From the NCBI RefSeq assembly GCF_001921205.1, contig NZ_MSIE01000034.1, forward strand, positions 1 to 64,000: a stretch of 64,000 nt of DNA, read 5' to 3'. The stretch comes from Actinophytocola xanthii (lineage in GTDB: Bacteria > Actinomycetota > Actinomycetes > Mycobacteriales > Pseudonocardiaceae). The notes beneath the pieces are model-generated. The model made no database searches. It was not told the origin of the DNA and worked only from the letters and a program-made list of their open reading frames with translations. Shown piece by piece: positions 1,226-33,520 of this stretch. Made by a program: the position numbers and the translations under genes. Numbering within the stretch: position 1 is the stretch's first letter; each line of letters starts with the position of its first letter.

Positions 1226-1915
1226 ATGCAACGACGTACTGACCGGATCCTGCCGCTCGGCCTTGCCTCGGCGTTCACCGTCGTGGTCCAGGGGTTGTCC
1301 CTCGTGGAGTTCCTTCCCGTGCTGCTGGCGCTGCTGGCCGCCGCCGCGTGGGCGGTGGTGGTCGACCTCGCTGCGCTGTGGGTCAGGCGACACGCGCGCC
1401 TGAGTGCGTGGGTGGAGGACGTCCTGGTCGCTCTCGGTGTCACGGCGATGGCGCTGTTCGCGTTCGGCGGAGCGATCGGGCTGATGATGTTGGGGCTTGC
1501 CCTGGACAGCTCGTCGATCAGCGGCGAGACCATGGTGCTGATGTTCCTGCCCAGCATCCCCATCGCGATCGCGGCCAACCTGCCCACCGAGCTGGTCGTC
1601 ATCCCCGGGTTGCTGGTCCTGGGCTGGCGTCGGGGACCTCGTCGGGTTCTCGTCGTCGTCGCCGCGGGGCTCTACCTCGTGCTCCGGGTGTGGACCTACC
1701 TCGTGTTCGCTGGCGACCGCCTCGACCTCACCGAGGCGGAGCGGTCGACGACGCCGTTGACCGCCGCCCAGCGGGAGGAGTTCGCGGCCGCCTTCCACGT
1801 CGAGGACCCGCGGTGGATCCTCAACCTGGCCGTGTTCGTCGTTCTCCTGCTGGCCGCGTTCTTCCCCCGGAACCCGTTGCATCGCCGGGCAACGAGCGCA
1901 ACGGTGGGGCCATGA
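1226..1915 (+). CDS. multi-pass membrane protein of unknown function
   Basis: 229 residues with about five or six hydrophobic helices (near 10-50, 68-92, 105-125, 128-165 and 200-218) and a short polar loop around 172-195 (DRLDLTEAERSTT). I recognise no catalytic motif. Its stop overlaps the start of the following P450 in an ATGA arrangement, which implies translational coupling. It may therefore be a membrane partner of that P450 or simply a co-transcribed gene. Confidence 0.8.
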   Translation: MQRRTDRILPLGLASAFTVVVQGLSLVEFLPVLLALLAAAAWAVVVDLAALWVRRHARLSAWVEDVLVALGVTAMALFAFGGAIGLMMLGLALDSSSISGETMVLMFLPSIPIAIAANLPTELVVIPGLLVLGWRRGPRRVLVVVAAGLYLVLRVWTYLVFAGDRLDLTEAERSTTPLTAAQREEFAAAFHVEDPRWILNLAVFVVLLLAAFFPRNPLHRRATSATVGP

Positions 1916-3261
1916 GGCCGACACGTGGTGTTCTCGACCGTGCCGCCGGGGGACTGAACGCGGTCACCGCGCCGTTCGACCCCGAGGGGTACCTGCGCAG
2001 GCGTCGCGCTCGCGGCGGTGACCCGGTCATCGTCCGGGTGCCGGGGGCGGCGGGGCGGATGGTGGTCTCGGGAGATCCCGAGGCAGCCCGGGAGCTGTTC
2101 GGCGGGCCGGTCGAGCTGTTCGACGTCCCCCGTCCCAACCCGGTGGAGCCGCTGCTGGGGACCGGGTCGCTGATCATGCTGAGCGGCGAACGGCACCGAC
2201 GTGAGCGGCGGGTGCTCACGCCCCCTTTCGGCGGACAGCGGATGCGGGCCTACGGGACGATCATCCAGGAGGCGGTGCTCGACCAGGTGCGCTCGTGGCG
2301 GCCGGGGCAACGGCTGGACGCCCAGCGGTTCGGGCAGGCGGTCACGCTGTCGGTGATCGTCCGCGCGGTGTTCGGCGTCGACGGCGGCTCGCTTGGTGAG
2401 CACTTTGCCACCACGACGGCACAGCTGCTCCAGGGGTACAAGCCCATGCTGTCGGTGCCGGCGCTGCGGCGGACGGTGGGGCGGTTGGGCCCGGAGGCGC
2501 GGCTGCGGCGGCGGTTGGCCGCGTTCGACTCGCTGCTCGCCGCGGAGATCGAGAACCGACGCGGCACCGGCGTCGCCGACCGGGAGGACATCCTGTCACT
2601 GCTGTTGTCGGTCCGCTACGACGACGGCAGCGAGCTGTCCACTTCGGATCTGCTGGACGAGCTGCGCACGATGGTCGTCGCCGGCCACGAGACGACGGCG
2701 ACGACGCTCGGCTGGGCGCTGTACCACCTCTACCGGGAACCGGCCCTGGTGCGGCGGCTGATCGAGGAACTGGCGCCGCTCGGTAATCCGCCACCACCGG
2801 CGGAGCTGGCCGAGCTGCCCTTCCTGCGGGCGGTGTGCCACGAGGCGTTGCGGCTGCACCCGGTCGTACCGATGGTCGCCCGGCGGCTGCTCGCACCCTG
2901 GCGGTTCCGCGGCGTCGACCTCGCCCCGGGCGACACGGCGGCCGTCGCGACCTCCTTGCTGCACCACAACCCCGACGTCTGGGACGAGCCGCTCACGTTC
3001 CGGCCGGACCGGTTCCTGGACCGCGAACCACGAGGGTTCGCGTTCGCGCCGTTCGGGGGCGGGCACCGGCGCTGCCTCGGCGCGGCGTTCGGCGACTACG
3101 AGCTGCGCATCGCACTGGGCACGGTGGTCTGCATGGCCACGCTGTCGATGCCCGAGCGGGAACGGGGTCGCCGGATCCCCCCTGCCGTGCCACGCAACAT
3201 CACGTTCGGCCCACGGCGGCCGCTCATGCTGACCTTCGAGGGGCCGACCGGTACCGCATGA
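1912..3261 (+). CDS. cytochrome P450 (class with FGGGHRRC haem loop)
   Basis: 449 residues. P450 landmarks are present in order: the I-helix oxygen-binding motif AGHETT, the K-helix ExxR as EALR, a PDRF-type meander (FRPDRF) and the haem loop FGGGHRRCLG with the thiolate Cys at residue 388. The open frame runs further upstream, but the ATG at 1912 overlaps the previous stop (ATGA) and gives the normal family length, so I chose it. The haem-loop wording resembles mycobacterial CYP132/135/138-like and fatty-acid-type P450s (family knowledge, not tested). No ferredoxin gene is adjacent. It faces the end of the minus-strand operon with only a 3-nt gap, so a role in the same pathway is possible but unproven. 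Confidence 0.93.
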   Translation: MRPTRGVLDRAAGGLNAVTAPFDPEGYLRRRRARGGDPVIVRVPGAAGRMVVSGDPEAARELFGGPVELFDVPRPNPVEPLLGTGSLIMLSGERHRRERRVLTPPFGGQRMRAYGTIIQEAVLDQVRSWRPGQRLDAQRFGQAVTLSVIVRAVFGVDGGSLGEHFATTTAQLLQGYKPMLSVPALRRTVGRLGPEARLRRRLAAFDSLLAAEIENRRGTGVADREDILSLLLSVRYDDGSELSTSDLLDELRTMVVAGHETTATTLGWALYHLYREPALVRRLIEELAPLGNPPPPAELAELPFLRAVCHEALRLHPVVPMVARRLLAPWRFRGVDLAPGDTAAVATSLLHHNPDVWDEPLTFRPDRFLDREPRGFAFAPFGGGHRRCLGAAFGDYELRIALGTVVCMATLSMPERERGRRIPPAVPRNITFGPRRPLMLTFEGPTGTA

Positions 3262-3782: not shown

Positions 3783-5390
3783 TCAACCGCCCGACCCGTG
3801 CGGTTGCCGACCCGCGGTCGCGATCAAGTCCTGTGCCTCCTGGATGGGAAAAGCGGCGTTGAGATAGCCCCCGAGCCTGGTCCAGTCATAGCCGATGTCG
3901 AGCGTACTTCGCCACTCGGCGATCGACGCGAAGGAGGACGGGAACAGCTCCACCCCCACCGCCGCGCGCATGGCCGTGACGAGGTCCTCGAGGTCGGTCA
4001 GGAGCCTGGCCGCCTGGTCGGCGTTCGCCACGCGGAACTCGACCGCTCGCGCGGACTCCGCGATGGGCCGCGGGAGCTCCGGCAGACGCGACAGCCAGTC
4101 GAGTGACTCCTCGGCGGGAGGTTGCGGGCTCACGCCGAACGCGCTCAGCACCGCCAGGCACGCCTGCCGGAACATGCGGCGCGAGGTCGTCTCGACCACG
4201 GGCCACTGGCGACGCCGCGCCGCGCCCTCGGCGTCCTCCCGTGCGTTCTCCACCATGATGTTCGCCCAGACCAACGACATGCCCGCCTCCGCGAACCGCC
4301 GCGCCGCCAGCGGAACGAGGGTGACGAACGGGTCGTGCTCGGTGACCGGCGCCCCGTGCAGGGACAGGATCGGCCGGCGGGCTGTCGGCGGCGGGGACGC
4401 GACCGCGTACCCCCGCACCAGACCGCCGCCCCGCCAGCGCAACCGCAGGAGACCGACCCGGAGGAACTCGGCGATGACCTCGCCCGCGTCACCCGTCACG
4501 ACCTCCGGCAGCGGTGTGTCGAAACGCAGCGATCGCCAGACGTGTGCCGCCTTCTCGTTCAGCGTGAACACGTCTTGGCCGCGCAGCAGGTGCAGGTGCC
4601 GGCCCAGTGGCCAGGTCGTGACGCCCCGGACCCGGGCGAGCAGTACGCGTGCCGGGTCGAGCGGGGCCCCGTCGACGCCGAGCTCGGGAAGCGAGCCGAC
4701 GCAGTGCCGGACGTACTGCTCCGGCGGCAGGTCCGAGCGCTCGGCGGTCTCGAGCATCCGGCGGACCGGCGCCGAGCCGTCGACACGCGCCAGCTGCTGG
4801 GAGATCCACTTGCGTTCGAGGTAGCTCTCGCCGCGCTCGGCGACCCAGGACTTGGCGCCCTGGATCAGCGCGGTGCGGGCCCAGCTCGCGGCGCGGTCCA
4901 CGGCCCCGAGTCCAGCGAGCGCCGTCGCGTACCGGGCGGACTGCCGGGCACGCTGGCGGAACCAGACCACGACGATCCGGGCCAGCTCGTCCTCGGGCAG
5001 GATGTCCCGAACGGCCTTCAGCGACGAAGGGTTGCGCAGCGGAACAGCTCGGACCAGCCGCTGGACCCGGTTCAACGAGTCCTCGGGGATGCCGGCGACT
5101 CCTCGGGGGCCAGACCTGGCGGAGCCGGCGACCGCGCGCGCCAACTCCTCGGCCTGCCGCACGGACCGCACGCGGACCTCGACCCGGCGTCCCTCCACGA
5201 ACACGATGGTGGGCATCGTCGGGAAGTCGTGGTCGCCGGCCTCCAACAACAGGAAGTCCACATCGGAGGAGTCGTTGCCGAAACCCTCGGCGATCGATCC
5301 CTCGATGACCGCCGCCGTGCCCTCCGGTACGTCGATCCCCTCGGTCGCGAGGGTGAGCAGGTGCTGGAGGTGGTCGTGGGACAGGATCAC
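3783..5390 (-). CDS. nucleotidyltransferase-fold protein with a PqqD-like segment
   Basis: 535 residues. Near the N terminus is a minimal nucleotidyltransferase signature, GSxxEG followed by SSDVD (residues 31-45), which supplies the first two metal-binding aspartates; REVRV-like strands follow. Residues about 258-317 (LGRHLHLLRG, FTLNEKAAHVWRSL) resemble the PqqD fold, a peptide- or partner-binding module. The rest (320-535) is unassigned and partly helical. The GTG start at 5390 overlaps the lyase stop, giving tight coupling. Nucleotidyltransferase and HPr-kinase-like genes sit together in some lasso-peptide clusters (family knowledge), but no precursor, protease or cyclase is seen here. 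Transfer of a nucleotide to a small-molecule or carrier substrate is inference. Confidence 0.75.
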   Translation of the reverse strand: MILSHDHLQHLLTLATEGIDVPEGTAAVIEGSIAEGFGNDSSDVDFLLLEAGDHDFPTMPTIVFVEGRRVEVRVRSVRQAEELARAVAGSARSGPRGVAGIPEDSLNRVQRLVRAVPLRNPSSLKAVRDILPEDELARIVVVWFRQRARQSARYATALAGLGAVDRAASWARTALIQGAKSWVAERGESYLERKWISQQLARVDGSAPVRRMLETAERSDLPPEQYVRHCVGSLPELGVDGAPLDPARVLLARVRGVTTWPLGRHLHLLRGQDVFTLNEKAAHVWRSLRFDTPLPEVVTGDAGEVIAEFLRVGLLRLRWRGGGLVRGYAVASPPPTARRPILSLHGAPVTEHDPFVTLVPLAARRFAEAGMSLVWANIMVENAREDAEGAARRRQWPVVETTSRRMFRQACLAVLSAFGVSPQPPAEESLDWLSRLPELPRPIAESARAVEFRVANADQAARLLTDLEDLVTAMRAAVGVELFPSSFASIAEWRSTLDIGYDWTRLGGYLNAAFPIQEAQDLIATAGRQPHGSGG

Positions 5391-6859
5391 GGCGTCACCT
5401 CCGCAGCGCGAGGCCGGTTCCCGCGGGCCAGCCGCGCGGCCATTCCGTCGGAACCCAGCAGCCGCCGCTCCCACAACCCGCACACGTACTCGGTGCGTTC
5501 CGCCGCGAGTCCGGTGTAGCTCTCGGGGTGGACAAGGACGTCGGACAGCCCGCCGAGCGACGAGGCCAGGCGGTCGTCCGCACGCAGCACACCGGACAGT
5601 GCCTCGCCGGAGGACTGCGCGCGCCGCACGGCGGCGTGCACGAGATCGTAGGCGTCGGCATGGCCGGACAACGCGAGCAGCACGTACAGCGCTTCGGTCG
5701 TCACCTGCTCGCCCGCCGCGTCGAGGTGGCGGCGCATTCGCGCGGGGTTCACCCGCACCGCAGCCAGAGCGCGGGTCAGGACGGTGGTGGCGCAGGAGAA
5801 GGCGACGAACAGCTCCACGGCGAACCGGGCCGAGGCGCCGTTGGTGAGGTCCCGCTGGTGCTCGGAGACCTGGTCGAGCAGGGTGGTGACCAGGCGGGGC
5901 GCGAACGACTTCCACAGGCTCTTCACCATCTCGAAGCGGAACGGGTTCGTCTTGTGCGGCATCGTCGACGACCCGACCTCCGTCGCGTCCGGGGCGGTTC
6001 CCAGCTCACCGATCTCGCTGCGCATGAGGTGCCGCACGTCGTCGGCGATGTTCGCCAGCACGGAGAAGCACGACGTGACCGCCCAGGCCAGGTCGCCGGC
6101 GTACTCCGGCGGCACGATCTGGGTGGCGTGTGCCGCGGGCGCGATGCCCAGCTCGCCCAGGACGGCCTGCTCGAGCTCCTCGGGCGAGAACGTCGTGCGG
6201 TCCCCGAGGAGTGTGTGCGCGTTGTAGGCGCCGACCGCACCCGACGCCTTGCCCTTCAGGCAGTGCGCCGCCCGTTCGACTGCCTCGATCCGGTTGCCGA
6301 GCCGGTGCACGTACCCCGCCACGGTGAACCCGAAGGTGACCGGGACGGCGAACTGCCCGTGGGTCCGGCCCACCTGGGGGAGCTCCGCAGTGGCCCGCGC
6401 CCAGTCGATCAACAGTCGCGCGAGGTCCAGCAGGTCCGGCAGCAGCACCTCGATCGTGAGGTCGCGCAGGCGCAGCGCCGCGGCCGTGTCGGTCACGTCA
6501 GACGAGGTCAACAGCAGGTGCACCCATGGGCGGGCGGGCTCGGAGACCCGCCTCCCGACACAGTTGACCAGTGCACGCACGTGGTGCTTGGTCCGCAGCT
6601 CCTCGAGGTAGACCTCCTCCGGGGTGACCTCGTGGCAGGCCGCCGCGATCTCGTCCGCCACCTCGGCCGTGCACAGCCCGGCCTTCGCCAGCGCACGCGC
6701 GAGGGCGACCTCCACCTTGAGCTGGTAGCGGATGTGCGCGCTCTCCGAGGCGTACGGTCGTGCCCGGTCGTAGACTCCGCGGATTCCCTTGTAGTAGCGG
6801 TAGTCCAGCGGCGACACGTCGTCGAAGTCGAAGCGGGGATAACCGTCCACGTCAGACAC
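5387..6859 (-). CDS. adenylosuccinate lyase homologue (fumarase/aspartase superfamily)
   Basis: 490 residues, close to the usual family length. The superfamily signature GSSTMPHKTNP spans 296-306, a THGQ catalytic histidine is at 167, and KHHVR carries histidines at 92-93. PurB normally removes fumarate from adenylosuccinate or SAICAR. Here it overlaps its neighbours by 4-8 nt inside a biosynthetic operon and lies two genes after a PurA-like gene, so a specialised lyase that frees an amine from a succinyl adduct is more likely than housekeeping purine synthesis. Its substrate is inference. Argininosuccinate-lyase-type chemistry in N-N bond pathways is an alternative. Confidence 0.85.
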   Translation of the reverse strand: MSDVDGYPRFDFDDVSPLDYRYYKGIRGVYDRARPYASESAHIRYQLKVEVALARALAKAGLCTAEVADEIAAACHEVTPEEVYLEELRTKHHVRALVNCVGRRVSEPARPWVHLLLTSSDVTDTAAALRLRDLTIEVLLPDLLDLARLLIDWARATAELPQVGRTHGQFAVPVTFGFTVAGYVHRLGNRIEAVERAAHCLKGKASGAVGAYNAHTLLGDRTTFSPEELEQAVLGELGIAPAAHATQIVPPEYAGDLAWAVTSCFSVLANIADDVRHLMRSEIGELGTAPDATEVGSSTMPHKTNPFRFEMVKSLWKSFAPRLVTTLLDQVSEHQRDLTNGASARFAVELFVAFSCATTVLTRALAAVRVNPARMRRHLDAAGEQVTTEALYVLLALSGHADAYDLVHAAVRRAQSSGEALSGVLRADDRLASSLGGLSDVLVHPESYTGLAAERTEYVCGLWERRLLGSDGMAARLARGNRPRAAEVTP

Positions 6860-7949
6860 GAGATGTCGCCACCCTCCGGGCGAGTACCTCCAGGGCTTCG
6901 GCCACCTGGCCGCGGGTGTGCTCCCGGCGCAGGAAGAAGTGGTGCGGCACGCACCGACTCAGGGCGTCGATCACCTTCGCCTCCCGCTCCGACGCCGGGC
7001 CGCCGGCGAAAAGACCCGACCAGTTGCCTGGCGCCAGCTCCTGCCGGAAGGCCGCGACGTTGCCGGTCAGCTCGTCGCGGACCACCGCCGCGCTCACCGG
7101 TTCGACCGACGGCGGCCCGACGCGGCGGTCCAGCAGCGGCCTGACGACAAGTCCGACCGGCGCGGAGCGCCGGACGCCGTAGAGCCTGGACAACTGGTCG
7201 AGCGGCACGACGATCTTCGCCCGCACGTCGGTGTCCGGTGCCGGTCCCAGCTCCGGGAACAGTTCGGCCGTCCCGCGTCCCACGGTCAGTGGATACGGCA
7301 GACCGTGGGACACTGCGCCGCCGGGTCCGGCGCGGACCACCACCCGGTCGTTGGACAGGAACTCCGCTCCCCGGTGTACCAGGAGGTGGAGCAGTGTGGT
7401 GGTCTTGCCGTCGCCACTCTCACCGAAGACGAGCACACCGCGGCCGTCCAGCACACAGGCGCCGGCGTGGACGATCGTCGCCGTCGCAGAGCACCACGGC
7501 ATCAGCACCTGACCCCGCACCACGCTGACCGTGTCGGCCTCGAGAACCCAAGGCCGGGGTTGGCACACCACGACCTCCCGTCGTCCGAGGTGGACGATGA
7601 CCCGGGTGCCGTCCCGTTCGGTCTCGACGAGCACCACGTCGCCGAGCGCCCGTCGCCGAGCCGTGTCCGCCCCGCCGAACACCGCGATCCGCTCGGAGTC
7701 GGGAATGAGCGCGTCGAACGCCGCCGACGCGCCGGACGGGAGCGACGGCAGGCACCACACGTGCACCGTCGAGCCGTCGTCGGCGGGCGGCGACGGACCG
7801 GCGAGCGCCGCCACCGCGTCCAACGGCTCCGGCCGCGGCGCGACGAGCTCGACGCGCAGACCGTGCCACCACAGCTCGGTGTGACACCGGAACGGCTGCG
7901 TGCGCAGCTCGCCGAGCAGCGCCTCGCCGACGTCGTGCCGGGCCAGCAT
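6852..7949 (-). CDS. HPr kinase/PEPCK-like P-loop protein
   Basis: 365 residues from the ATG at 7949, with an in-frame GTG immediately upstream. A P-loop of the HPr-kinase type, GESGDGKTT, lies at 176-184 and is followed by LSNDRVVV, the strand with the acidic residue typical of this fold. The N-terminal 150 residues are not recognised. In bacteria, related proteins phosphorylate HPr, and HprK-like proteins of some RiPP clusters phosphorylate a peptide serine. No HPr or precursor gene is seen nearby. Its stop and start overlap both neighbours, so it acts with the PurA- and PurB-like proteins. The phosphoacceptor is unknown. Confidence 0.75.
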   Translation of the reverse strand: MLARHDVGEALLGELRTQPFRCHTELWWHGLRVELVAPRPEPLDAVAALAGPSPPADDGSTVHVWCLPSLPSGASAAFDALIPDSERIAVFGGADTARRRALGDVVLVETERDGTRVIVHLGRREVVVCQPRPWVLEADTVSVVRGQVLMPWCSATATIVHAGACVLDGRGVLVFGESGDGKTTTLLHLLVHRGAEFLSNDRVVVRAGPGGAVSHGLPYPLTVGRGTAELFPELGPAPDTDVRAKIVVPLDQLSRLYGVRRSAPVGLVVRPLLDRRVGPPSVEPVSAAVVRDELTGNVAAFRQELAPGNWSGLFAGGPASEREAKVIDALSRCVPHHFFLRREHTRGQVAEALEVLARRVATSRV

Positions 7950-9031
7950 CACGACAGGAGCCCGGTGTCGCCGCTGAGATCGATCATCATGTCGGGTTCC
8001 GGGCCCGTGCTGACGTAGCTGAGGCGTCCGGACAGGTCGCAGCGCTCGACGACGTCCCTCAGCCAGTCAAGCGTCTGGGCGGAGAGATCCGCGAGCCGCC
8101 TCTTGCCGTAGTCCTGCCAGTTCCGGTAGTCCAGGAAGGTGAGGGCCACCCTGCTGGGACGGTTGATCGCGAGCGCCTGCTTGAGGTCCTCCTCGGCGAA
8201 CTCGAAGACGCGACGCACCCGGCCGGTGACCGTGGTCCTCTCGAGGATGGAGACCGGAGATCCGCTGCGCCGGGTGACGGTCTCCCAGCTGATCTCCCTG
8301 CCCGCCAGCGGGCCCGAGTTGCCGGCCACCCTGATCGGGTAGGTGCGGAACACGCCGATGATGTCGCGAACCGCGAGCGGGCTCACCGCCGCATCGGACA
8401 GCACCCCCGCGGCGTTGGGATCGCAGTTGGTCGTCATCGGGTAGTACGGCGAGGTCACGATCGACAGCAGGCTGCCCTGGTGTCCTTCGAGCAGGACCGG
8501 CCGGTTCTCGTTGATGTAGTTCCCGATGAACCCGATCGTGTCGGTGAGGTAGGGCTTCAGCCACTCGACGTCGTCGGCCCGGCGGATGGCGGTGTCGCGG
8601 GACAGCTTGTCCATCCGTGCGGCGCCGACCCCCTGGAGGGTCGACCCGTACCGCTCCCACCGGTTCTCCTGGGCCGCCGTGTCGGCGTGTCTGCTGTCGA
8701 CGATGACGACCCGGGGGTCGATGCGCAGCCGGTGTCGCACGTGGACGCCGGCCTGCTCGACCATCGCGATCTCCCTGCGCAGGATCTCCTCGCCGAAGAA
8801 CGCACCGGGTGCGATCACGAGCTCGCACCGGGGGTTGATCCAGGCGCACGGCAGGACCCGCATCGCGAACGGCTCCCCGTTGAAGTGCACCGTATGCCCC
8901 GCCTGGTGCCCGCCCGACCGCACCGCGACGTCGTAGCGGTCCGAGAGATATGCGACGACCTTCCCCTTGCCCTCGCTGCCGGCCTGCAGTCCGACGATCA
9001 CGTCGACACAGGAGTTCTCCCTGCTGTTCAT
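7949..9031 (-). CDS. short PurZ-like adenylosuccinate synthetase homologue
   Basis: 360 residues, against about 430 for bacterial PurA. The N-terminal P-loop reads GLQAGSEGKGK. The Ser at residue 19 sits where PurA has its catalytic Asp13, while the following Glu, the Lys residues and the catalytic His (GGHQAGHT, His46, equivalent to His41) remain; Asn38 is Gln43. The PurA arginine loop (GRRRR) is replaced by ERTTVTGRVRRV. Loss of the Asp and the short length are features I associate with PurZ, which uses dGMP instead of IMP. The family reaction is GTP-dependent coupling of an amino acid, normally aspartate, to a purine 6-oxo group. It pairs with the downstream PurB-like lyase. The substrate is inferred; a protein alignment would settle the subfamily. 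Confidence 0.82.
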   Translation of the reverse strand: MNSRENSCVDVIVGLQAGSEGKGKVVAYLSDRYDVAVRSGGHQAGHTVHFNGEPFAMRVLPCAWINPRCELVIAPGAFFGEEILRREIAMVEQAGVHVRHRLRIDPRVVIVDSRHADTAAQENRWERYGSTLQGVGAARMDKLSRDTAIRRADDVEWLKPYLTDTIGFIGNYINENRPVLLEGHQGSLLSIVTSPYYPMTTNCDPNAAGVLSDAAVSPLAVRDIIGVFRTYPIRVAGNSGPLAGREISWETVTRRSGSPVSILERTTVTGRVRRVFEFAEEDLKQALAINRPSRVALTFLDYRNWQDYGKRRLADLSAQTLDWLRDVVERCDLSGRLSYVSTGPEPDMMIDLSGDTGLLS

Positions 9032-11784: not shown

Positions 11785-12702
11785 TCAGCCGACGGTCCAC
11801 AGCAGCGCCTCGACGATGACGCCGAACTGGAGGAGCACGGCGTAGATCAGACCGGCGAGCCCGAGGGCCCGGGCCAGCCGACTCGCCCGGGCGGCCGGTG
11901 GGGCCATCGCCCACTCCCCTGCCGTCCAGGCGATGAGCAGTCCGAGGAGGACGCTCTGGTAGATGATGAAGAACCAGGTCACCGGCAGGGTGACGACGAT
12001 GGTCGCGACACACGCGGCCGCGCAGCACAGCAGCGCGAGCAGGACGGCACGCACGCCGTCGCGCCCGAGGCGATAGGGCCGGTAGTCGAGGTCGGGCGCC
12101 TTGCGCGAGAACTTCCAGAACTCGTAGGCCGCCCAGAACAACACGACCACAGCCGCCGTCGGTGCCGCCGCCGGCGCGACTCCGCCCTCGGAGAGCCAGA
12201 ACAGGACCGGGTAGGCCATGACCACCAGGGGGATGGTCTCGTAGCACACGGCGAGCGGCACCCGTCGGGTCGTCAGCCGGCGCTTGACCCAGAACGGGGT
12301 GAGCACCGTCAGGGCCACCGCGGCGAGAGCGCCGCCGAGCGCCGGTGGGTACAGCAGGTTCAGTGCCACGATCCCGACCACGACGGTGAGCCACCCGTAC
12401 GTGAGCCCGCTCCGGGTGTGCCCGGCGGCACCGCCGTCCTGCTCCAGGTCGTCGATGTCGTCGACGAGACGCAGCTGGAGGAACAGCAGCACGAACGAGG
12501 CGACGCCGAGCACGCCCGTCCACCGCAGGCCGACGGGGCCGACGGCACGGTCGAGGAGCAGCTGCGCGGACACGAACGTCAGCACGATCGCCGTTCCCTG
12601 GGTCGGGAGGGGAAACCGGGACGCCAGGTAGCCCCGCACCGCACGCGATACCGACCCGGTCCGTGGACCGCCCGTCCGTGCGCCTCCGACGGTGTCGTTC
12701 AT
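11785..12702 (-). CDS. UbiA-like polytopic prenyltransferase candidate
   Basis: 305 residues with about eight hydrophobic helices. An Asp-rich loop, LRLVDDIDDLEQD, ends near residue 89 after the second helix, where UbiA-family enzymes hold their first prenyl-diphosphate-binding motif. A second polar loop, FSRKAPDLDYRPYR, fits the second Asp-containing region. The longer open frame upstream overlaps the hotdog gene and is not used; the ATG at 12702 is 28 nt after that gene. If it is UbiA-like, it would attach a polyprenyl group to an acceptor at the membrane. Similarity is by topology and motif only, and the second motif is atypical. Confidence 0.6.
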   Translation of the reverse strand: MNDTVGGARTGGPRTGSVSRAVRGYLASRFPLPTQGTAIVLTFVSAQLLLDRAVGPVGLRWTGVLGVASFVLLFLQLRLVDDIDDLEQDGGAAGHTRSGLTYGWLTVVVGIVALNLLYPPALGGALAAVALTVLTPFWVKRRLTTRRVPLAVCYETIPLVVMAYPVLFWLSEGGVAPAAAPTAAVVVLFWAAYEFWKFSRKAPDLDYRPYRLGRDGVRAVLLALLCCAAACVATIVVTLPVTWFFIIYQSVLLGLLIAWTAGEWAMAPPAARASRLARALGLAGLIYAVLLQFGVIVEALLWTVG

Positions 12703-12730: not shown

Positions 12731-13738
12731 TCAGGTGTCCTGGTGGACGCCGTGGGTGGCGAGAGCGGCGGCCACCGTCCTGCCCTTGCCGTCGTGGATC
12801 CGCACCTCGGCGTGCGCGACGGTCCTGCCGGTCGCGACGACCGCGCCGTCGGCGCGCAGCTCCGCGTCGTCGACGGGTACCCGTCGCAGGTAGGACAGCG
12901 CGATGTCCTGGGTGGCCGCCGTCGTGCCGCTGGGCAGTGCGGTGCGCACGGCCCCGTAGGCCGTGCGTTCGGCCAGGAACGCCAGCACCCCGCCCTGGAT
13001 GTTGCCCAGCGGCGAGGAGAACCACGCGTTGGCCGGGAGAACGGCCGAGAACTCACCGTCCTCAAAGGACAGAATGCGCAGTCCGGTCAGTCGCCCCAGC
13101 GGCGCGGTCGCGAACTCGGCGGACAGGCTGCCGGGTGACGGGTGCCACCTCTCCGGCACCGGAAGCTCGTGCGGCCTGAACCCGACGGCGGCGTCGGGAA
13201 TGGTGGCCGGGTTCGACGGCGGCGTGCACGCCGGTGCGGGCAGCGGGAAGAGCGCGGAGCGGGATGTCGACCGGGCGACGAGCCGGTTGTCGCCGTCCCG
13301 GACGGCAGCGGTCGACAGCACGTGGGTGGCCGTGGTGTGCAGCACGTGCCCGCTCGCCGTGAGCGGACCGGAACCCGGTCGTACCCGGTCGCCCAGCTGG
13401 ATGGAGGTCGACACGGTCACGAACCCGGTCGCGGGAGCCACCGTGGTGTAGACGGCACCGAGGTGTGCGGAGTCGAGCACGACCGCCAGGACGCCCTCGG
13501 TCATCACCCCGCCGCGCCAGTCCAACCAGCCCGTCGCCGGCATGCGGTAGGCGGCTGTGCCGCTGTCCACTGCCTCCAGGGTGATGCCGAAGAGCCGGTC
13601 GATCGGCGGGGCGACGGTCTTGCCCGCGATTCCCCAGCGCAGCTGCTCGAGCCCGGGAAGGGCGGTGAGCTCGGTCGCCCGTGCGTCGACGGACACCTCC
13701 TCGTACGGCGAGCGGAACGTCGCGACCAGCGCGGTCAT
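12731..13738 (-). CDS. double-hotdog (PaaI/acyl-CoA thioesterase-like) protein
   Basis: 335 residues made of two related halves. Each half has a hotdog helix preceded by a Gly-rich turn: GVMTEGVLAVVLDSAHLGAV in the first, GNIQGGVLAFLAERTAYGAV in the second. Each is followed by strands with TTATHVLSTAAVRDGD- or GRTVAHAEVRIHDGKG-like wording. PaaI-type thioesterases hydrolyse acyl-CoA thioesters. The first half has Asp in the helix (LDSAH) and the second Glu (LAERTAYG), possible catalytic acids. The ATG at 13738 overlaps the P450 stop (ATGA). Context suggests release or transfer of an acyl group in the pathway. Confidence 0.8.
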   Translation of the reverse strand: MTALVATFRSPYEEVSVDARATELTALPGLEQLRWGIAGKTVAPPIDRLFGITLEAVDSGTAAYRMPATGWLDWRGGVMTEGVLAVVLDSAHLGAVYTTVAPATGFVTVSTSIQLGDRVRPGSGPLTASGHVLHTTATHVLSTAAVRDGDNRLVARSTSRSALFPLPAPACTPPSNPATIPDAAVGFRPHELPVPERWHPSPGSLSAEFATAPLGRLTGLRILSFEDGEFSAVLPANAWFSSPLGNIQGGVLAFLAERTAYGAVRTALPSGTTAATQDIALSYLRRVPVDDAELRADGAVVATGRTVAHAEVRIHDGKGRTVAAALATHGVHQDT

Positions 13739-15030
13739 CGGCGCCGCGCTCCGGTTCGGGCCGCGGTGGGGGTGAACTCGCACGGCAGCCGCTTGATGCC
13801 GTTGATGAACGAGCTGCCGAGCAGCGGCTCCGGTTCACCCGCCGAGATGTCGGGTAGCCGTGCGAGCAGCTCGCGGAAGGCCGCGGTGATCTCCCGCCGC
13901 GCGAGGTGCGCGCCGAGGCAGAAGTGAGGTCCCGGACCACCGAACCCCACCTGCGGGTTCGGCTGCCTGCGGATGTCGAAGCGCGCCGCGTCGGGGAAGA
14001 CCGACTCGTCCCGGTTGGCTGACCAGTAGAAGAGCAGGACCTTGTCGCCACGGCGGTACCGCATGCCGTTCATGACGTGGTCACGGGTGGCGCGGCGGCG
14101 CATGAAGATCACCGGCGAGCTGATCCGCACGATCTCCTCGACCGCGGTCGGCGCGTGCCGCTCGAAGTCCGCGAGCCACAGCTGTCTCTGGTCCGGGTTG
14201 TGGGTGAGCAGTGTCAGCCCGTGTGCGATCGCGTTGCGTGTGGTCTCGTTGCCCGCGACCACCAGCAGGATGAAGAAGGACGCGATCTCCTGGTGGGTCA
14301 GCCGCTCGCCGTCGACGTCGGCGTTGACCAGTACCGAGACGAGGTCCTCGGTGGGGTGCTCGCGCCGGTGGGCGGCGAGGTCGGTGACCAGCTCGACCAG
14401 CTCGTTGGCCGCGCCGAGCATGCGGCTGCCGATGCCGGCGGGATCGGTGAGGAACTCCGGGTCGAAACCGCCCAGGATGCGTACCGAGCGGTCGATGACG
14501 AACTGGTGACGGGACGACGGAATGCCCATCATGTCGCAGATCACGATCAGCGGGAGCCTGGCCGCTACCTCGGCGACGAAGTCGCACTCGCCGCGCTCGG
14601 CGATGGCGTCGACGAGTCCCGCGGCGATCCGTCGCACATCGCTCTCGATCCGCCCCGTCATCTTCGGGGTGAAAGCCCGTGACACGATGCGCCGCAGCCG
14701 CGCGTGTTCGGGGTCGTCCATGTTGATCAGTGAGCCGAAGTACTGCGCGAACTCCGTTGGCATGTCGGCGATGTTGGTGGCGCCTCCCCAGGAGGAGCAG
14801 AACACCTCGGCGTTTCGGCTGGCCTCGACCACGTCCGCGTGCCGCACGAGGGCGTAGTAGCCCGCGCCGGGCGGGAAGCCGATCTCGGACAGGTCGGGCT
14901 CGGCGTAGAAGCGAGGCCGAGGCTGTGCCCTGAGCTCGGCGAAGGCCGCCTCCCGGTCCGCGAGCGAGCGGCTCCAGAACTCGGTGTCGGACAGGTCGAT
15001 GTCCATGACCGTGTTTTCGTCGCTCGCCAT
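13735..15030 (-). CDS. cytochrome P450, CYP124/125/142-like
   Basis: 431 residues. Motifs seen are AGNETTRN in the I helix, where Asn replaces the commoner acidic or His residue, EIVR for ExxR, and the haem loop GFGGPGPHFCLGAHLARRE with the thiolate Cys at 371. AGNETTRN with PHFCLGAHLARRE is the wording of actinobacterial P450s that hydroxylate terminal carbons of sterol or branched/isoprenoid chains (family knowledge). In an operon with a UbiA-like protein, an SDR and a thioesterase, hydroxylation of a lipid or prenyl chain is a reasonable inference. The ATG at 15030 was chosen over an upstream extension that runs into the SDR gene. Confidence 0.92.
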   Translation of the reverse strand: MASDENTVMDIDLSDTEFWSRSLADREAAFAELRAQPRPRFYAEPDLSEIGFPPGAGYYALVRHADVVEASRNAEVFCSSWGGATNIADMPTEFAQYFGSLINMDDPEHARLRRIVSRAFTPKMTGRIESDVRRIAAGLVDAIAERGECDFVAEVAARLPLIVICDMMGIPSSRHQFVIDRSVRILGGFDPEFLTDPAGIGSRMLGAANELVELVTDLAAHRREHPTEDLVSVLVNADVDGERLTHQEIASFFILLVVAGNETTRNAIAHGLTLLTHNPDQRQLWLADFERHAPTAVEEIVRISSPVIFMRRRATRDHVMNGMRYRRGDKVLLFYWSANRDESVFPDAARFDIRRQPNPQVGFGGPGPHFCLGAHLARREITAAFRELLARLPDISAGEPEPLLGSSFINGIKRLPCEFTPTAARTGARRR

Positions 15031-15043
15031 CGTCGACCTCCGT

Positions 15044-16159
15044 TCAGGATCCCTGAAGCTGCGCGGTTCGGCGGGACACGGTGCGGGGCGGCGGGCCGAA
15101 GTAGCCGACCCGAAGCCCGTGGTCGAGCAACTTCCGTAGATGTGCACGGCCTTCGATCGCGGGTTTTCCGCCGGCGATCTCCCGCGCCACGGTGGTGTCG
15201 AAGAACGCGCGGCGGCGGAAATAGTCCTCGTACAGCACCATGATGCTGCGGTAGTACCGCTGCTCCGCGGCCGTGAGCTGGTCCAGCTGCCAGTTCGCCG
15301 GCGGTATGTAGCGTGGCACGTGGAAGTTCGGGTACTCGGCGAGCACATCACTGAAGTCGCGGAGGGTCAGCGGACTGGCGCCAGTCACGTGAAGCGTCTT
15401 TCCCGCCGCGGTATCGAACCGGTCGCTGACGCGGGCGATCACGTCCGCGACGCGGTCGATGGGCACGAGGTCGATCACGGCGTCGTACAGGCCCGGGATG
15501 GCGCGTAGCCGGCCCTGCGTGAGCACCTTGATGACGATGTACATGTTCCTGAACTCCCGGATCGCACCGGTGCGCTGGTTCCCCACGACGACCGAGGGCC
15601 GCACCACCGCCACCGGCCAGCCATCGGCCCGCACCTCCGCGACAGCCACCTCCGCGTGGAACTTGCTCGCCTCGTAGGGGTTCCCGTGCCGCTGTCCGAG
15701 ATCGAGCTCGTCCTCCCGGACCACGCCCGTTCGGTCGCCGCACACGTAGGCCGTGCTCACGTGCACCAGCGGAATGCGCCGTGAACCGGCGGTGAGGAAG
15801 CCGAGCAGGTGACGAGTGCCGGTGACGTTGACCGACTCGTACCGGGCCGGGTCCAGACCGAAGTCGGTGACGGCGGCGTTGTGCACGACCAGATCGGAAC
15901 GGTTCGCGACGACGCGGCGGATTTCCGAGGACAGGCCCAACCCGGGGTCGGTTATGTCGCCACGTACGACGACGACCGACTCGGGTTCGAAATCCCCGCG
16001 AAACGGTTTCGTCCGAATGCGACGCCCATTGTTTCGAACCAGTTCGCCATTGTCGTGGGTAACCGCCACAACCGCGTGCCCACCGGCGAGCAGCCGGGCC
16101 ACGACCTCGGCCCCGACCAGTCCGGCGGCGCCGGTGACGACCACATTGCGTTTTGCCAT
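15044..16159 (-). CDS. extended SDR, NAD(P)-dependent epimerase/thioester-reductase-like
   Basis: 371 residues. A Rossmann fingerprint, TGAAGLVG, lies at about 9-16, the NNAA-like element appears as HNAAVTDFG, and the active site has HVSTAYVCG followed by YEASK. The closest wording I know is in the extended-SDR group that includes thioester reductases and fatty-acyl reductases (the SKFHAE and VVRPSVVVGNQRTG region). It is the first gene of the minus-strand operon and starts 275 nt from the divergent activator. It may reduce a carbonyl or an acyl thioester; with the hotdog protein and P450 it suggests handling of an acyl or alkyl unit. Confidence 0.85.
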   Translation of the reverse strand: MAKRNVVVTGAAGLVGAEVVARLLAGGHAVVAVTHDNGELVRNNGRRIRTKPFRGDFEPESVVVVRGDITDPGLGLSSEIRRVVANRSDLVVHNAAVTDFGLDPARYESVNVTGTRHLLGFLTAGSRRIPLVHVSTAYVCGDRTGVVREDELDLGQRHGNPYEASKFHAEVAVAEVRADGWPVAVVRPSVVVGNQRTGAIREFRNMYIVIKVLTQGRLRAIPGLYDAVIDLVPIDRVADVIARVSDRFDTAAGKTLHVTGASPLTLRDFSDVLAEYPNFHVPRYIPPANWQLDQLTAAEQRYYRSIMVLYEDYFRRRAFFDTTVAREIAGGKPAIEGRAHLRKLLDHGLRVGYFGPPPRTVSRRTAQLQGS

Positions 16160-16433
16160 GATTACGAACCCAAACCCTCGTCCCAGGATTGGGAGTCAAG
16201 CACAACCCTCTCACCGTGTCAGCCCGCGCCGAACCGAACGAGGCGCGCGACCCGGGCTGCCTGCGCCGATGGTGCGGGTGAACTTCTTCCGGCAGCCGCA
16301 CGAGGCCGATACACTCGCCTGATCGTGTGACGCCGCACAAGGGATGTCGAGCGCCGGTCGTGATCGGTGTCGTTGCGGATCGTCATTCAGGTATGGGCAA
16401 GCCGCTGGTGCACAACCTTGGGGGATGCGGTTG
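16160..16433 (-). promoter_or_regulatory. divergent promoter region between the operon and its activator
   Basis: 274 nt without a convincing ORF separates the SDR start from the StrR-like start, so both promoters must lie here. I looked for the palindromic StrR/NovG-type site (GTTCGACTG half-sites) and did not find a clear copy. A GATACACT element near 16308 could be a -10 box. It is the natural place for the activator to bind, but I cannot define the site. Confidence 0.5.
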
Positions 16434-17432
16434 ATGGCCGGTTACAGCAATGCTCGCCCGTCGGCCATCGGACAGCACGGCAGCACCGTCTGGCTTCCGG
16501 TCGAATCGTTGCGCGGGGCGGACTCGCCGCGGTTGGCCGGCGAGGATATCGAGCACGTGCTGGTGCTGAACGAGATGGAGGCACCGTTCCCGCCGATCAC
16601 GGTTCATCGCGCCACGATGCGCGTCATCGACGGGATGCACCGGTTGTGCGCCGCGAGGCTGCGCGGTGACGACCGGATCGAGGCGCGGTTCTTCGACGGG
16701 ACAGAGGATGACGCGTTCGTGCACGCCGTGGCGGCCAACATCGTGCACGGTCTGCCGCTGTCGCTGCCGGATCGCACGGCGGCGGCGGCCCGCATCGTCG
16801 CCTCCCACACCGACTGGTCCGACCGGCGGATCGCGGAGATCACAGGGCTCGCCGCCACTACCGTCGGATCGATCCGCCGGCGTTCGAACGAAGGCCTCAC
16901 ACAGTCGAACATCCGTGTCGGTCGGGACAAGAGGGCACGCCCGGTGAACAACTCCTCCGGCCGGACGCTCGCCGGCGAACTGATGAGCGAGCGCCCGGAG
17001 CTGTCGCTGCGGAAAGTCGCCAAGGCGGCCGGGATCTCCGTGTCCACCGCCCACGACGTCCGCAAGCGCATTCGCCAGGGCCAGCACCCGGTTCCGCCGA
17101 GGCAGCGGACCGGCGACGACGTCGAGTCCTCGACGACGGGCAAGGCGGCCGATCAACCGATGACGAGCTGCCCGAGGCGGATCCCCACGACCGAGATCGC
17201 GCCGATCCTGCGGCGGTTGCGAACCGATCCTTCACTGCGGTTCAGCGACAGCGGTCGTGAGCTGCTCCGGTGGCTGGTCCTGCACACCGCGGACGTCCAG
17301 CAGTGGGAGCGGCTCATCGACTCGGTACCGGCGTACTCGCGCCCGCTCGTCGCGGAGCTCGCCAGAGGAACCAGCAGGGCGTGGTACGAGTTCGCGAACC
17401 GCCTCGACCAGCTCGGGGACACGGAGTCCTGA
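16434..17432 (+). CDS. StrR/NovG-type ParB-like pathway activator
   Basis: 332 residues from the ATG at 16434, preceded by GGGGG at good spacing; an in-frame ATG at 16425 is an alternative. A ParB N-terminal-like domain spans about residues 18-110 (VWLPVESLRGADSPRLAGED and VIDGMHRLCAA). Two helix-turn-helix segments follow at about 127-150 (WSDRRIAEITGLAATTVGSI) and 191-213 (SLRKVAKAAGISVSTAHDV). This is the layout of the StrR family, cluster-specific activators in aminoglycoside, aminocoumarin and glycopeptide clusters (family knowledge). Its divergent position at the head of the ten-gene operon strongly suggests it switches that operon on. Confidence 0.88.
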   Translation: MAGYSNARPSAIGQHGSTVWLPVESLRGADSPRLAGEDIEHVLVLNEMEAPFPPITVHRATMRVIDGMHRLCAARLRGDDRIEARFFDGTEDDAFVHAVAANIVHGLPLSLPDRTAAAARIVASHTDWSDRRIAEITGLAATTVGSIRRRSNEGLTQSNIRVGRDKRARPVNNSSGRTLAGELMSERPELSLRKVAKAAGISVSTAHDVRKRIRQGQHPVPPRQRTGDDVESSTTGKAADQPMTSCPRRIPTTEIAPILRRLRTDPSLRFSDSGRELLRWLVLHTADVQQWERLIDSVPAYSRPLVAELARGTSRAWYEFANRLDQLGDTES

Positions 17433-22214: not shown

Positions 22215-25200
22215 TCACGACGTCCGTGCGCGTCGTCGGGACCTCCGCCGGCCGCCGAGCACGAACCCGACGCCGGCGAGGACGAGCAGGAGACCCGCGG
22301 CGAGCCAGCGCAGGACGGCGTACCCGGTGAAGGCGAGCGGCGGCTCGTCGTCGTCCGAGGGCACCTGTCCCCCGCCACCGGACCCCGGAGGCGCCTGTGG
22401 TGCCGGAGACGGCGGTGGTGTGGCGGTCACCTCGGTCACGCTGCTCGCCGTGTCGTCGTCGGCGGTCGCGTCGAAGACCCCGGCCGCGGTCAGCGTGGCG
22501 GTGTTGGTCAGCTGACCGACCCGGTCCAGCCGCACGGTCAGGGTCAGCGACGGGGAGTCTCCCGGTGCCACCGGGCCGAGCGCCCAGAACCCGGTCGCCG
22601 GGTCGAACTCCCCCCGGTCCGCCCGGGCGGACAGGAGCGTGACACCGGCCGGCAGCCGGTCCAGCACGCTGACCCCCGGCGCCGAGGACGGGCCGTCGTT
22701 GGTGGCCGTCACCGTCCAGGTCAGCCGCGTGCCGACCTGGGCTCGGGCCGCGTCGGCCGTCTTGGTCAGGGCAAGGGCCACCTCGCGGCGCAGGTCGGCC
22801 GCGGCCAGGGCGGTGTTGTCGCCGGTCTCGGGGTCGGGCGTGGCCGAGGCGACGACCGCGGTGTTGGTCAGCTGTTCGCCGGCCACCGACGGGTCGACCT
22901 CGCCGACGACGCGGACCCGCGTCGTGGTGCCCGCCGCGAGCGCGTCGACCGCGCACTCGAGAACGCCCTCGGTCACCGTGCAGGAGTCCACGTCGGCGGA
23001 GACGAACCGGACACCGGCCGGCAGCGGGTCGGTCAGCCGCACGTCGTCGGCCGTGGACGGGCCCGCGTTGGCGATCTCTACCATCCACGTGACCTGCTCG
23101 CCGGGGACGACCGGTCCGCTCTCGACGCTCTTGGCGACCGAGAGGTCCGCCTCCGACCGAAGCGGCGTGATCGCGTCCGCGACGTTGTTGGCGGGGTTGC
23201 CCTCCGCCGTCGTCGACAGGACCGAGACCGCGTTGACGATGTCGGCCGTGTCGGCGTCGGGCCGGACCTGGCTGGCCACCGACAGCGTCCTGGTGGCGCC
23301 GGGCGCGAGCTGGTCGAGCAGGCACCGCATGGTCCGGCCGGTGACCGTGCACCCGGTCGGCGGCTCCGAAACCTCGACGCCGGCCGGCAGCAGGTCGACC
23401 ATCACCACCTCGTCGGCGCTCGACGGACCGCTGTTGGCCACGGTCACCGTCCAGGTGAGCGGGTCCCCGGACTCGGCCTCGACCCGGTCGGCCACCTTCG
23501 TCACGCTCAGGTCGGCCCGGGTGGCGGCGCCGCCGGCCACCACCGCCGCGTTGTTGGTGAGGTCCGGGTCGGGCACGTCGCCCAGCACCGCCGCGTTGTT
23601 CGCGACCTCGCCCGGCGCGACGTCCGGGTCGACGGCCACCGTGACGGTCGTCGTGGCGCTCGCCCCCGGCGCGAGGGGTCCGAGCTGGCAGCTCACCACC
23701 TCGGCGGCGACCCCGCAGTCACCGTCCGGGCTGGTCACCTCGGTCACCGACATCCCGGCCGCGACCGGGTCGGTCAGCAGCACCGTCGGTGCCGTCGAGG
23801 GGCCGGCGTTGGCGACCGTGAGGGTGAAGGTGGCGGGCTCGCCGGCCACGATCGGGTCGGGCCGCAGCGTCTTGGTCAGCGACAGGTCGGCCGACTGGCC
23901 GACGGCGGTCGTGACCTCGGCCGTGTTGCCGGCCGGCCGCGGGTCGGCGACCGGGGAGGTGATCGACGCGATGTTGGTGAGCTGCCGCCAGCCGGTGTCG
24001 GGGGCCACCCGGCCGGCGATGGTCACCACGCGGTTCTCGCCGGGATCGAGCGCACCCACGGCGCACCGGACCACACGGTCCTGCGCCGCACAGGCGGGAT
24101 CGGTCGACACCAACGACACGCCCTCCGGTAGGACGTCGGTGACCACGACGTCCGTCGCCCGGGACGGGCCCGCGCTGCTGGCCGTGAGCCGCCAGGTCAC
24201 GGTCTGCCCGGCGACGGCCTCGGCCGGCCCGGTCTTCGTGACGGACAGGTCGGCGTGGGCCTCCACCGGCTCCCCCACCGCCGCGGTGTTGTTGGCGGTG
24301 TTCGGGTCGGCCGTGTCGGCGGTCACCGACACGCTGGCGCTCACGGCACCCACGGCGTCGGGCGCGAGCGACCCGCGCAGCACGATCTCCACCCGCTCCC
24401 CCACCCGAAGCGTCGGCGCCGTGCAGACGAGACCGCGGCAGGTCACGCCCGCCGGGGCGACGAACTCCAGGTCCCGCATGCCGGCCGGCGGCGAGAACGT
24501 GACGGTCAGCCCCGCGGCGTCCGCGGGCCCCGCGTTCTCCATGGTCGCCGTGAGCGTCAGCGCGCCTCCGGCGACCGGTGTCGTCGGCGTGAGCGTCAGG
24601 GCGACCCCGACGTCGGCCGAGACGGCCAACAGCGTGCTGGCCTCGTCGCTGTTGTCACCGGGGTCGGGGTCGGGGGTGCTGGTCGACACCGTCGCGACCG
24701 CCGGCAGGACCGGCCCGGTGAACCCCGGCGCGACCGTGCCGCGCACAGTCAGCCGCACGGCGCCGTGGGGTCCGGGCGACAGGTTCCCGAGGACGCACCG
24801 ATCCGGCGTGTCGCAGTCCTGCACCGCGTCCGGCGCGGTGATGGCCAGGCCGGTCACGCCTTCGGGTGCGGTGACGCGAACCGTGACGTCACGAGCGGTG
24901 GAGGGGCCGGCGTTGGTCACGATCACGGTCCAGCTGAACGGGCTACCCGGCGAGGCCGACGCGTGGTCGGGGCTGATGTTGACCGAGACCCCGGAGCTGG
25001 CCTCGACCTCCGTCGTCGCACTGGCCGACCTGCCGTCTGGCTCGGTCGGTGCCGGCTCGGGAACCGGAGAGGTGAGCGTGGCGGTGCCGACGACGGTCGC
25101 GGCCGTCGCGGCCGGCGCCAGGACGCCGGTGACCGTGACCGTCGTCTCCGTGCCGACGCCGAGCGTCGGGAAGACGCACCGGACCTCGCGCCCGTCGACC

Positions 25201-33290: not shown

Positions 33291-33520
33291 GACGAAACCG
33301 CTACGCGACCACACATATCCCAAGACATTAAGGAGAAACCGAGAAATTACAGATCACACGAGCAGGCGCAGTTTTGGCGACGCTGTGCAGTATTTTGAGC
33401 GCTTTCACCCCTCAGTAGCCTCGCAAGACCCCTTCAGGTGGACATCTGCTGACCGAACGTGGGATTCCCCTAGGGTCGATCCCGGAAGCGGAGCGTCGCC
33501 GAACCGGGCATCGTGGAGAG
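33291..33520. promoter_or_regulatory. AT-richer divergent promoter region
   Basis: 230 nt between the divergent giant gene and the AAA ATPase. Bases 33300-33400 are markedly AT-rich for this genome (for example GAAATTACAGATC and CAGTATTTTGAGCG), as expected for promoters of one or both genes. I see no recognisable riboswitch or operator. Confidence 0.45.

Follow-up and report, generated by a model that had tools for sequence, protein, structure and literature searches.

The window analysed here covers 64,000 nt of the Actinophytocola xanthii contig NZ_MSIE01000034.1 (positions 1 to 64,000, forward strand). Ten genes lie on one of its strands, from 16159 to 3265; no gap between them exceeds 36 nt, and the last four junctions overlap by 4 to 8 nt. 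They encode, in order, a short-chain dehydrogenase (SDR), a P450, a double hot-dog protein, a UbiA-like protein, a PEP-synthase/RedH-like enzyme, a PurZ-like synthetase, an HPr-kinase-like protein, a PurB-like lyase, a nucleotidyltransferase-PqqD protein and a NUDIX protein (Table 1). The HPr-kinase-like gene overlaps the PurZ-like synthetase gene by 4 nt. Elsewhere in the window, positions 22215-33323 encode a 3702-aa secreted repeat-module protein that ends in LAFTG, a membrane segment and an Arg-rich tail, resembling a sortase anchor.

Table 1. Features of the A. xanthii operon and its surroundings, with loci of two recurrent operons that hold cellular relatives of the synthetase
Feature	Coordinates	Strand	Basis
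Second cytochrome P450, convergent, possible cluster member	1906..3261	+	Pfam, NCBIfam
NUDIX hydrolase, 173 aa	3265..3786	-	Pfam
Putative nucleotidyltransferase-like plus PqqD-like protein, 535 aa	3783..5390	-	motif GSIAEGFGNDSSDVDF; no Pfam match
Adenylosuccinate-lyase (PurB)-like, 490 aa, archaeal type	5387..6859	-	Pfam, NCBIfam, motifs
HPr-kinase-like, 366 aa, P-loop GESGDGKTT	6852..7952	-	Hpr_kinase_C 23 bits, weak, below cut-off
PurZ-like synthetase, Ser-type PurA/PurZ superclade, 360 aa	7949..9031	-	ORF, Pfam, NCBIfam, tree, model
Asp-binding loop ERTTVTGRVRR, residues 264-274, canonical	8210..8242	-	coordinates computed from residue numbers
P-loop segment GLQAGSEGKGK, codons 13-26, Ser19 = AGC	8954..8995	-	coordinates computed from residue numbers
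PEP-synthase/RedH-PigC-like ATP-dependent enzyme, 898 aa	9068..11764	-	Pfam, NCBIfam
Putative membrane protein, UbiA-like	11785..12702	-	position and Asp-rich motif; no Pfam match
Double hot-dog thioesterase-like	12731..13783	-	Pfam, NCBIfam
Cytochrome P450	13735..15030	-	Pfam; start set at Met
Extended SDR / NAD_binding_4 reductase, 371 aa, first gene of the operon	15044..16159	-	neighbourhood comparison
Divergent HTH regulator, N-terminus probably ParB/StrR-like	16344..17432	+	sequence reading
Recurrent operon type 1, examples	L073:7894-9981, L043:2365-4133, L035:152-5798
Recurrent operon type 2, loci	L005-L008, L016-L018, L047, L053, L055, L057, L058, L063, L065, L069, L071 and others

Our searches gave no orthologue of the operon as a whole. 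The HPr-kinase-like protein occurred in no other genome among 249 of the family, and neither it nor the nucleotidyltransferase-like protein had a match on plasmids. Five other actinobacterial genomes in the sample encode the reductase, the PEP-synthase-like enzyme and the nucleotidyltransferase-PqqD protein together, next to UbiA-like, AfsA hot-dog and NDK-like proteins; in four of the five, a fatty-acyl-AMP-ligase-like domain is fused to the nucleotidyltransferase-PqqD protein. The window's nucleotidyltransferase-PqqD protein is homologous to the C-terminal half of the corresponding protein at one of these loci (L147). The recurrent cluster (L144-L148, in genomes G475, G021, G095, G007 and G060) sometimes also holds a glycosyltransferase and a P450. 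Homologues of purZ or purB were absent from the stretches read around this core in the five actinobacteria, so the synthetase, PurB-like, HPr-kinase-like and NUDIX genes look like additions to it. We know of no natural product of the A. xanthii cluster, nor of any product of the recurrent actinobacterial one.

The synthetase gene has codon-position GC contents of 0.64/0.47/0.93, typical of the window (72% GC), and its product is a full-length Adenylsucc_synt protein (Pfam 4e-49). The original prediction had placed an open reading frame of about 360 residues here without naming a strand, and its limits proved exact. It had also read Ser for the catalytic Asp in the P-loop, and this was confirmed at both the protein and the codon level, with Ser19 encoded by AGC and Ala17 by GCC. 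The catalytic Asp of GxxxGDEGKGK, the mark of ordinary PurA, is absent. As AGC lies two base changes from GAC (Asp being GAC or GAT), a one-base sequencing error hiding an Asp at residue 19 is excluded. An ordinary PurA with the Asp (GAQWGDEGKG) is encoded on a separate contig of the same genome (G000:C159). The synthetase scored below the cut-off of each NCBIfam model, with 247.7 bits for archaeal PurA (NF003295, cut-off 368), 177.6 for bacterial PurA (TIGR00184, 395.55) and 187.7 for phage PurZ (NF038379, 300). The equivalent of His41, said to be kept, is His46. Two other readings had to be given up. The arginine loop, thought to be changed, aligns column by column (TTVTGRVRR) with the T-x-T-G-R-x-R-R loop of PurA, archaeal PurA and PurZ, and the short length, taken as a sign of PurZ, is shared by archaeal PurA proteins with the Asp (335-342 aa).

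An alignment of Ser-type proteins, used to scan the contigs of GTDB, matched 352 relatives, and 80 of these were kept. Canonical PurAs for the tree were taken from genomes holding Ser-type relatives and from 80 archaeal genomes. The final tree (LG+C20) had 57 rows, and its 19 Asp-type rows fell outside a single clade of Ser/Gly proteins that included phage PurZ and PurZ0 (support 100/100). This agrees with published residue counts, in which phage PurZ has Ser in 147/147, archaeal relatives have Ser or Gly in four, and PurA has Asp13 in 99% (PMC12884076). All 25 canonical archaeal PurAs that we read carry the Asp, in the motif GGFWGDEGKGK. Within the Ser/Gly clade, the window enzyme groups with DPANN archaea and one Patescibacterium (98/91), although its branch is long (1.07), which makes its exact sister uncertain. 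AU tests rejected trees with the enzyme outside the Ser/Gly clade (p 0.012), grouped with the Asp types (p 0.010-0.012), or grouped with the phiVC8/S-2L phage PurZ (p 0.0169). Judged by sequence, the enzyme belongs to the PurZ/PurZ0 superclade. The view that it is a chromosomal relative of PurZ, rather than an ordinary PurA, was thereby upheld, its placement inside PurA having been tried and rejected. Ser19 is likely to reflect more than chance, given the full support for the clade and the intact state of the other catalytic residues.

The enzyme is not phage PurZ proper, as its clade position and its score under the NF038379 cut-off show; DatZ, MazZ and DpoZ were all absent from the scanned operon genes. 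It shares with the phage PurZ of phiVC8 and S-2L (6fm1, 7odx) the Ser at the catalytic position and a largely kept dGMP pocket, but it is only about 29-30% identical to them. PurZ0 of the Gordonia phages Archimedes and Ghobes (7vf6) resembles it in the Ser for Asp, the length of about 360 aa, the guanine-recognising Asp, the fold and the superclade, but is 34% identical and sits on a separate branch. The PurZ0 gene lies near Dut-like genes and serves viral DNA, whereas the window gene belongs to a metabolite operon that includes a PurB of its own. Closer relatives were sought in 299 genomes of the order, 395 of the class and 5 further ones of the genus, and none was found; the phylum held one distant relative (39%). 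A search of viral contigs with a single query (P0002), which reaches close relatives only, gave no match.

We mapped the dGMP-contacting residues of S-2L PurZ (PMC8342488) onto the synthetase. Gly18, Ser19, Ala44, Ser130, Thr131, Arg145, Gln185, Thr201, Arg234 and Val235 of the dGMP pocket are kept, Arg145 being contributed by the partner subunit. Among catalytic and ligand residues, Lys22, His46, Gln185, Arg145, Arg234, Arg271, Arg273 and Arg274 are all present. A structural or regulatory role for a protein that has lost its catalytic Asp would fit the missing general base, but is hardly credible given this conservation and the activity of phage enzymes with the same Ser (PMC8342488, PMC12884076). 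Asp301 corresponds in the alignment to Asp334 of the ordinary PurA of this genome, and 64 of 65 relatives have it; ATP-using phage PurZ has Asn or Gln at this position, so GTP is the likely phosphate donor.

Since the phosphate and ribose contacts are kept, the substrate is probably a 5'-nucleotide and not a free carbonyl compound. The base pocket is unusual at two positions: residue 17 is Ala here but aromatic in 63 of 65 relatives, and residue 43 is Gln but Asn in 61 of 65, with Gln in four DPANN proteins. The base may therefore differ from guanine. By this account, a modified guanine-like or other bicyclic nucleotide would be converted to a nucleoside that carries an amidine or amino group but is not 2-aminoadenine, with the retained phosphate and ribose contacts pointing to a nucleotide all the same. 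We consider it unlikely; the four archaeal proteins with Gln43 come from an unrelated context, so that this residue need not reflect the substrate of the pathway, and none of the scanned operon genes has an obvious role in remodelling a base.

The AlphaFold model of the synthetase (pLDDT 95.5) had as its best PDB match the archaeal PurA 5k7x (Z 47.6, rmsd 1.6, 333 aligned), and it also matched PurZ0 7vf6 (Z 45.3, rmsd 1.8, 337 aligned). Such likeness of a predicted fold does not settle the substrate. Archaeal-type PurA (5k7x, NF003295) shares with the window enzyme its length, fold and GTP-type residues, but carries the Asp without exception among those read, and the window enzyme is excluded from that group.

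The PurB-like lyase keeps GRTHGQ with the catalytic His, GSSTMPHKTNP with the catalytic Ser, and the SPxDYRY N-terminus. Its identity to the ordinary PurB of the archaeal order Methanophagales is 46-51%, against only 32% to the nearest PurB encoded elsewhere in the A. xanthii genome. We considered a pathway shared with the Methanophagales purZ operon through this PurB and rejected it, as the PurB in question is the order's ordinary one, present in 44 of 53 genomes. From these archaeal relationships, the synthetase and the lyase look as if they were acquired from archaea-like sources. They form a second PurA-like plus PurB-like pair within one biosynthetic operon, and the two-step amination would call for a lyase of its own.

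Second PurA-PurB pairs are also found in a deazapurine-type cluster of Rhizobium leguminosarum and in the formycin cluster, the latter having a second Pur set (PMC8724604). The Rhizobium locus (L009:8363-16711, plasmid pCC283b_4) encodes an Asp-type PurA, a PurB, FolE, and QueC/QueE-like, nitrile-hydratase-like and IMP-dehydrogenase-like proteins. These precedents, together with the IMP-bound archaeal PurA as the closest fold match, would fit a dedicated duplicate of AMP synthesis, in which the pair, despite Ser19, would convert IMP or a similar analogue into a nucleotide of adenine type, as happens in clusters for deazapurines and C-nucleosides, with no 2-amino group involved. This is rather unlikely in our view. 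Every canonical PurA that we examined retains the Asp, and so does the Rhizobium cluster enzyme; on the tree, Ser or Gly is the hallmark of the PurZ side, and no deazapurine or C-nucleoside genes occur among the scanned neighbours. The window pair also differs from the Rhizobium one, which lies beside deazapurine genes, in its archaeal-type PurB.

Ser-type PurZ-like genes are a frequent find on cellular chromosomes, with 352 loci matched. Most belong to one of two operons that recur, and the accompanying genes suggest a role in deoxynucleotide metabolism or defence. In the first type, an RNase_H_2/kinase-like gene precedes and a DCD-like gene follows the synthetase gene in 36-39 loci, with dNK in 24. 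Its synthetase is of Ser or Gly type, and it occurs in archaea and many bacterial phyla (L010 and part of L032-L102); it is possibly a deoxynucleotide-modifying or defence system. In the second type (35 loci), a P-loop-kinase-like domain is fused before the synthetase (about 540 aa in all) and DUF7002 follows directly, and an IrrE-peptidase protein, whose C-terminus is weakly macro/DarG-like, often precedes the fusion (21 loci). An HD YfbR-like gene is also present in some of the Rhizobiaceae copies, and the fused synthetases often lack the partner-subunit Arg145. PADLOC gave only weak, partial matches to the two operons, and a literature search of incomplete coverage found no description of them. 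In three DPANN/Patescibacteria genomes (loci L025, L026 and L031; genomes G879, G878 and G886), the Ser-type protein is the sole PF00709 match; either these genomes have no PurA, possibly as incomplete assemblies, or the Ser-type protein does the work of PurA.

With most cellular relatives adjoining DCD-like, dNK, nuclease, kinase-like, DUF7002 or HD genes, the window gene might represent such a deoxynucleotide or defence system that landed in the operon by chance. This is very improbable, as the window gene has none of the partners of either operon type, nor do any of those families occur among the operon genes; it is embedded in a biosynthetic operon, overlaps the next gene by 4 nt and has its own PurB. 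PADLOC, moreover, found no match for the synthetase or for the two neighbours tested.

Returning to a guanine-type substrate, the 2-amino purine is our best inference from the replacement of Asp by Ser. A guanine-type nucleotide appears likeliest because known Ser-type enzymes use 2-amino purine nucleotides, the window enzyme has residues of the GTP type, the contacts are intact and a dedicated lyase is present. The idea of a substrate other than IMP, put forward at the outset, thus holds as far as a guanine-like nucleotide is concerned; a non-nucleotide carbonyl, also suggested then, does not agree with the kept phosphate, ribose and most base contacts. Taken as a whole, the observation behind the original prediction was partly confirmed and its interpretation partly supported.

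We propose that the Ser-type, GTP-using synthetase would phosphorylate the 6-oxo group of a guanine-type 5'-nucleotide, and that aspartate would displace the phosphate to give a 6-succinylamino-2-aminopurine nucleotide. Fumarate would then be removed by the PurB-like lyase, the product of the second gene downstream, leaving a 2-aminoadenine (2,6-diaminopurine) nucleotide. The nucleotidyltransferase-like, kinase-like and NUDIX enzymes may draw on this nucleotide or a derivative of it to assemble or decorate a small molecule, and the PEP-synthase-like, reductase, hot-dog, UbiA-like and P450 proteins would supply the core of that molecule. The gene, the operon, the fold, the clade, the kept ligand residues and the dedicated second PurB are direct results of computation; we infer the order of the pathway and its use in a metabolite. 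That some neighbour functions are assigned from motifs rather than family matches counts against the proposal, as do the enzyme's long branch and its two unusual positions in the base pocket. We give about an even chance to the synthetase and lyase together making a 2-aminoadenine nucleotide for a metabolite, and hold as conceivable, though with somewhat less than even confidence, that a bacterial operon makes the 2-aminoadenine (Z) nucleotide as a small-molecule building block outside phage DNA.

Our literature searches, incomplete in coverage, found no description of such a cluster or of cellular PurZ operons, and no reported assay of any enzyme of the cellular Ser-type clade. In the papers that we consulted, the synthesis of 2-aminoadenine is described as a trait of phages, with a few relatives in archaea. 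If the proposal is true, Z-nucleotide chemistry would extend to bacterial natural products, and the synthetase and lyase genes form a pair that can be assayed directly. The wide occurrence of Ser-type PurZ-like genes on bacterial and archaeal chromosomes and plasmids makes the use of PurZ by cells a testable question.
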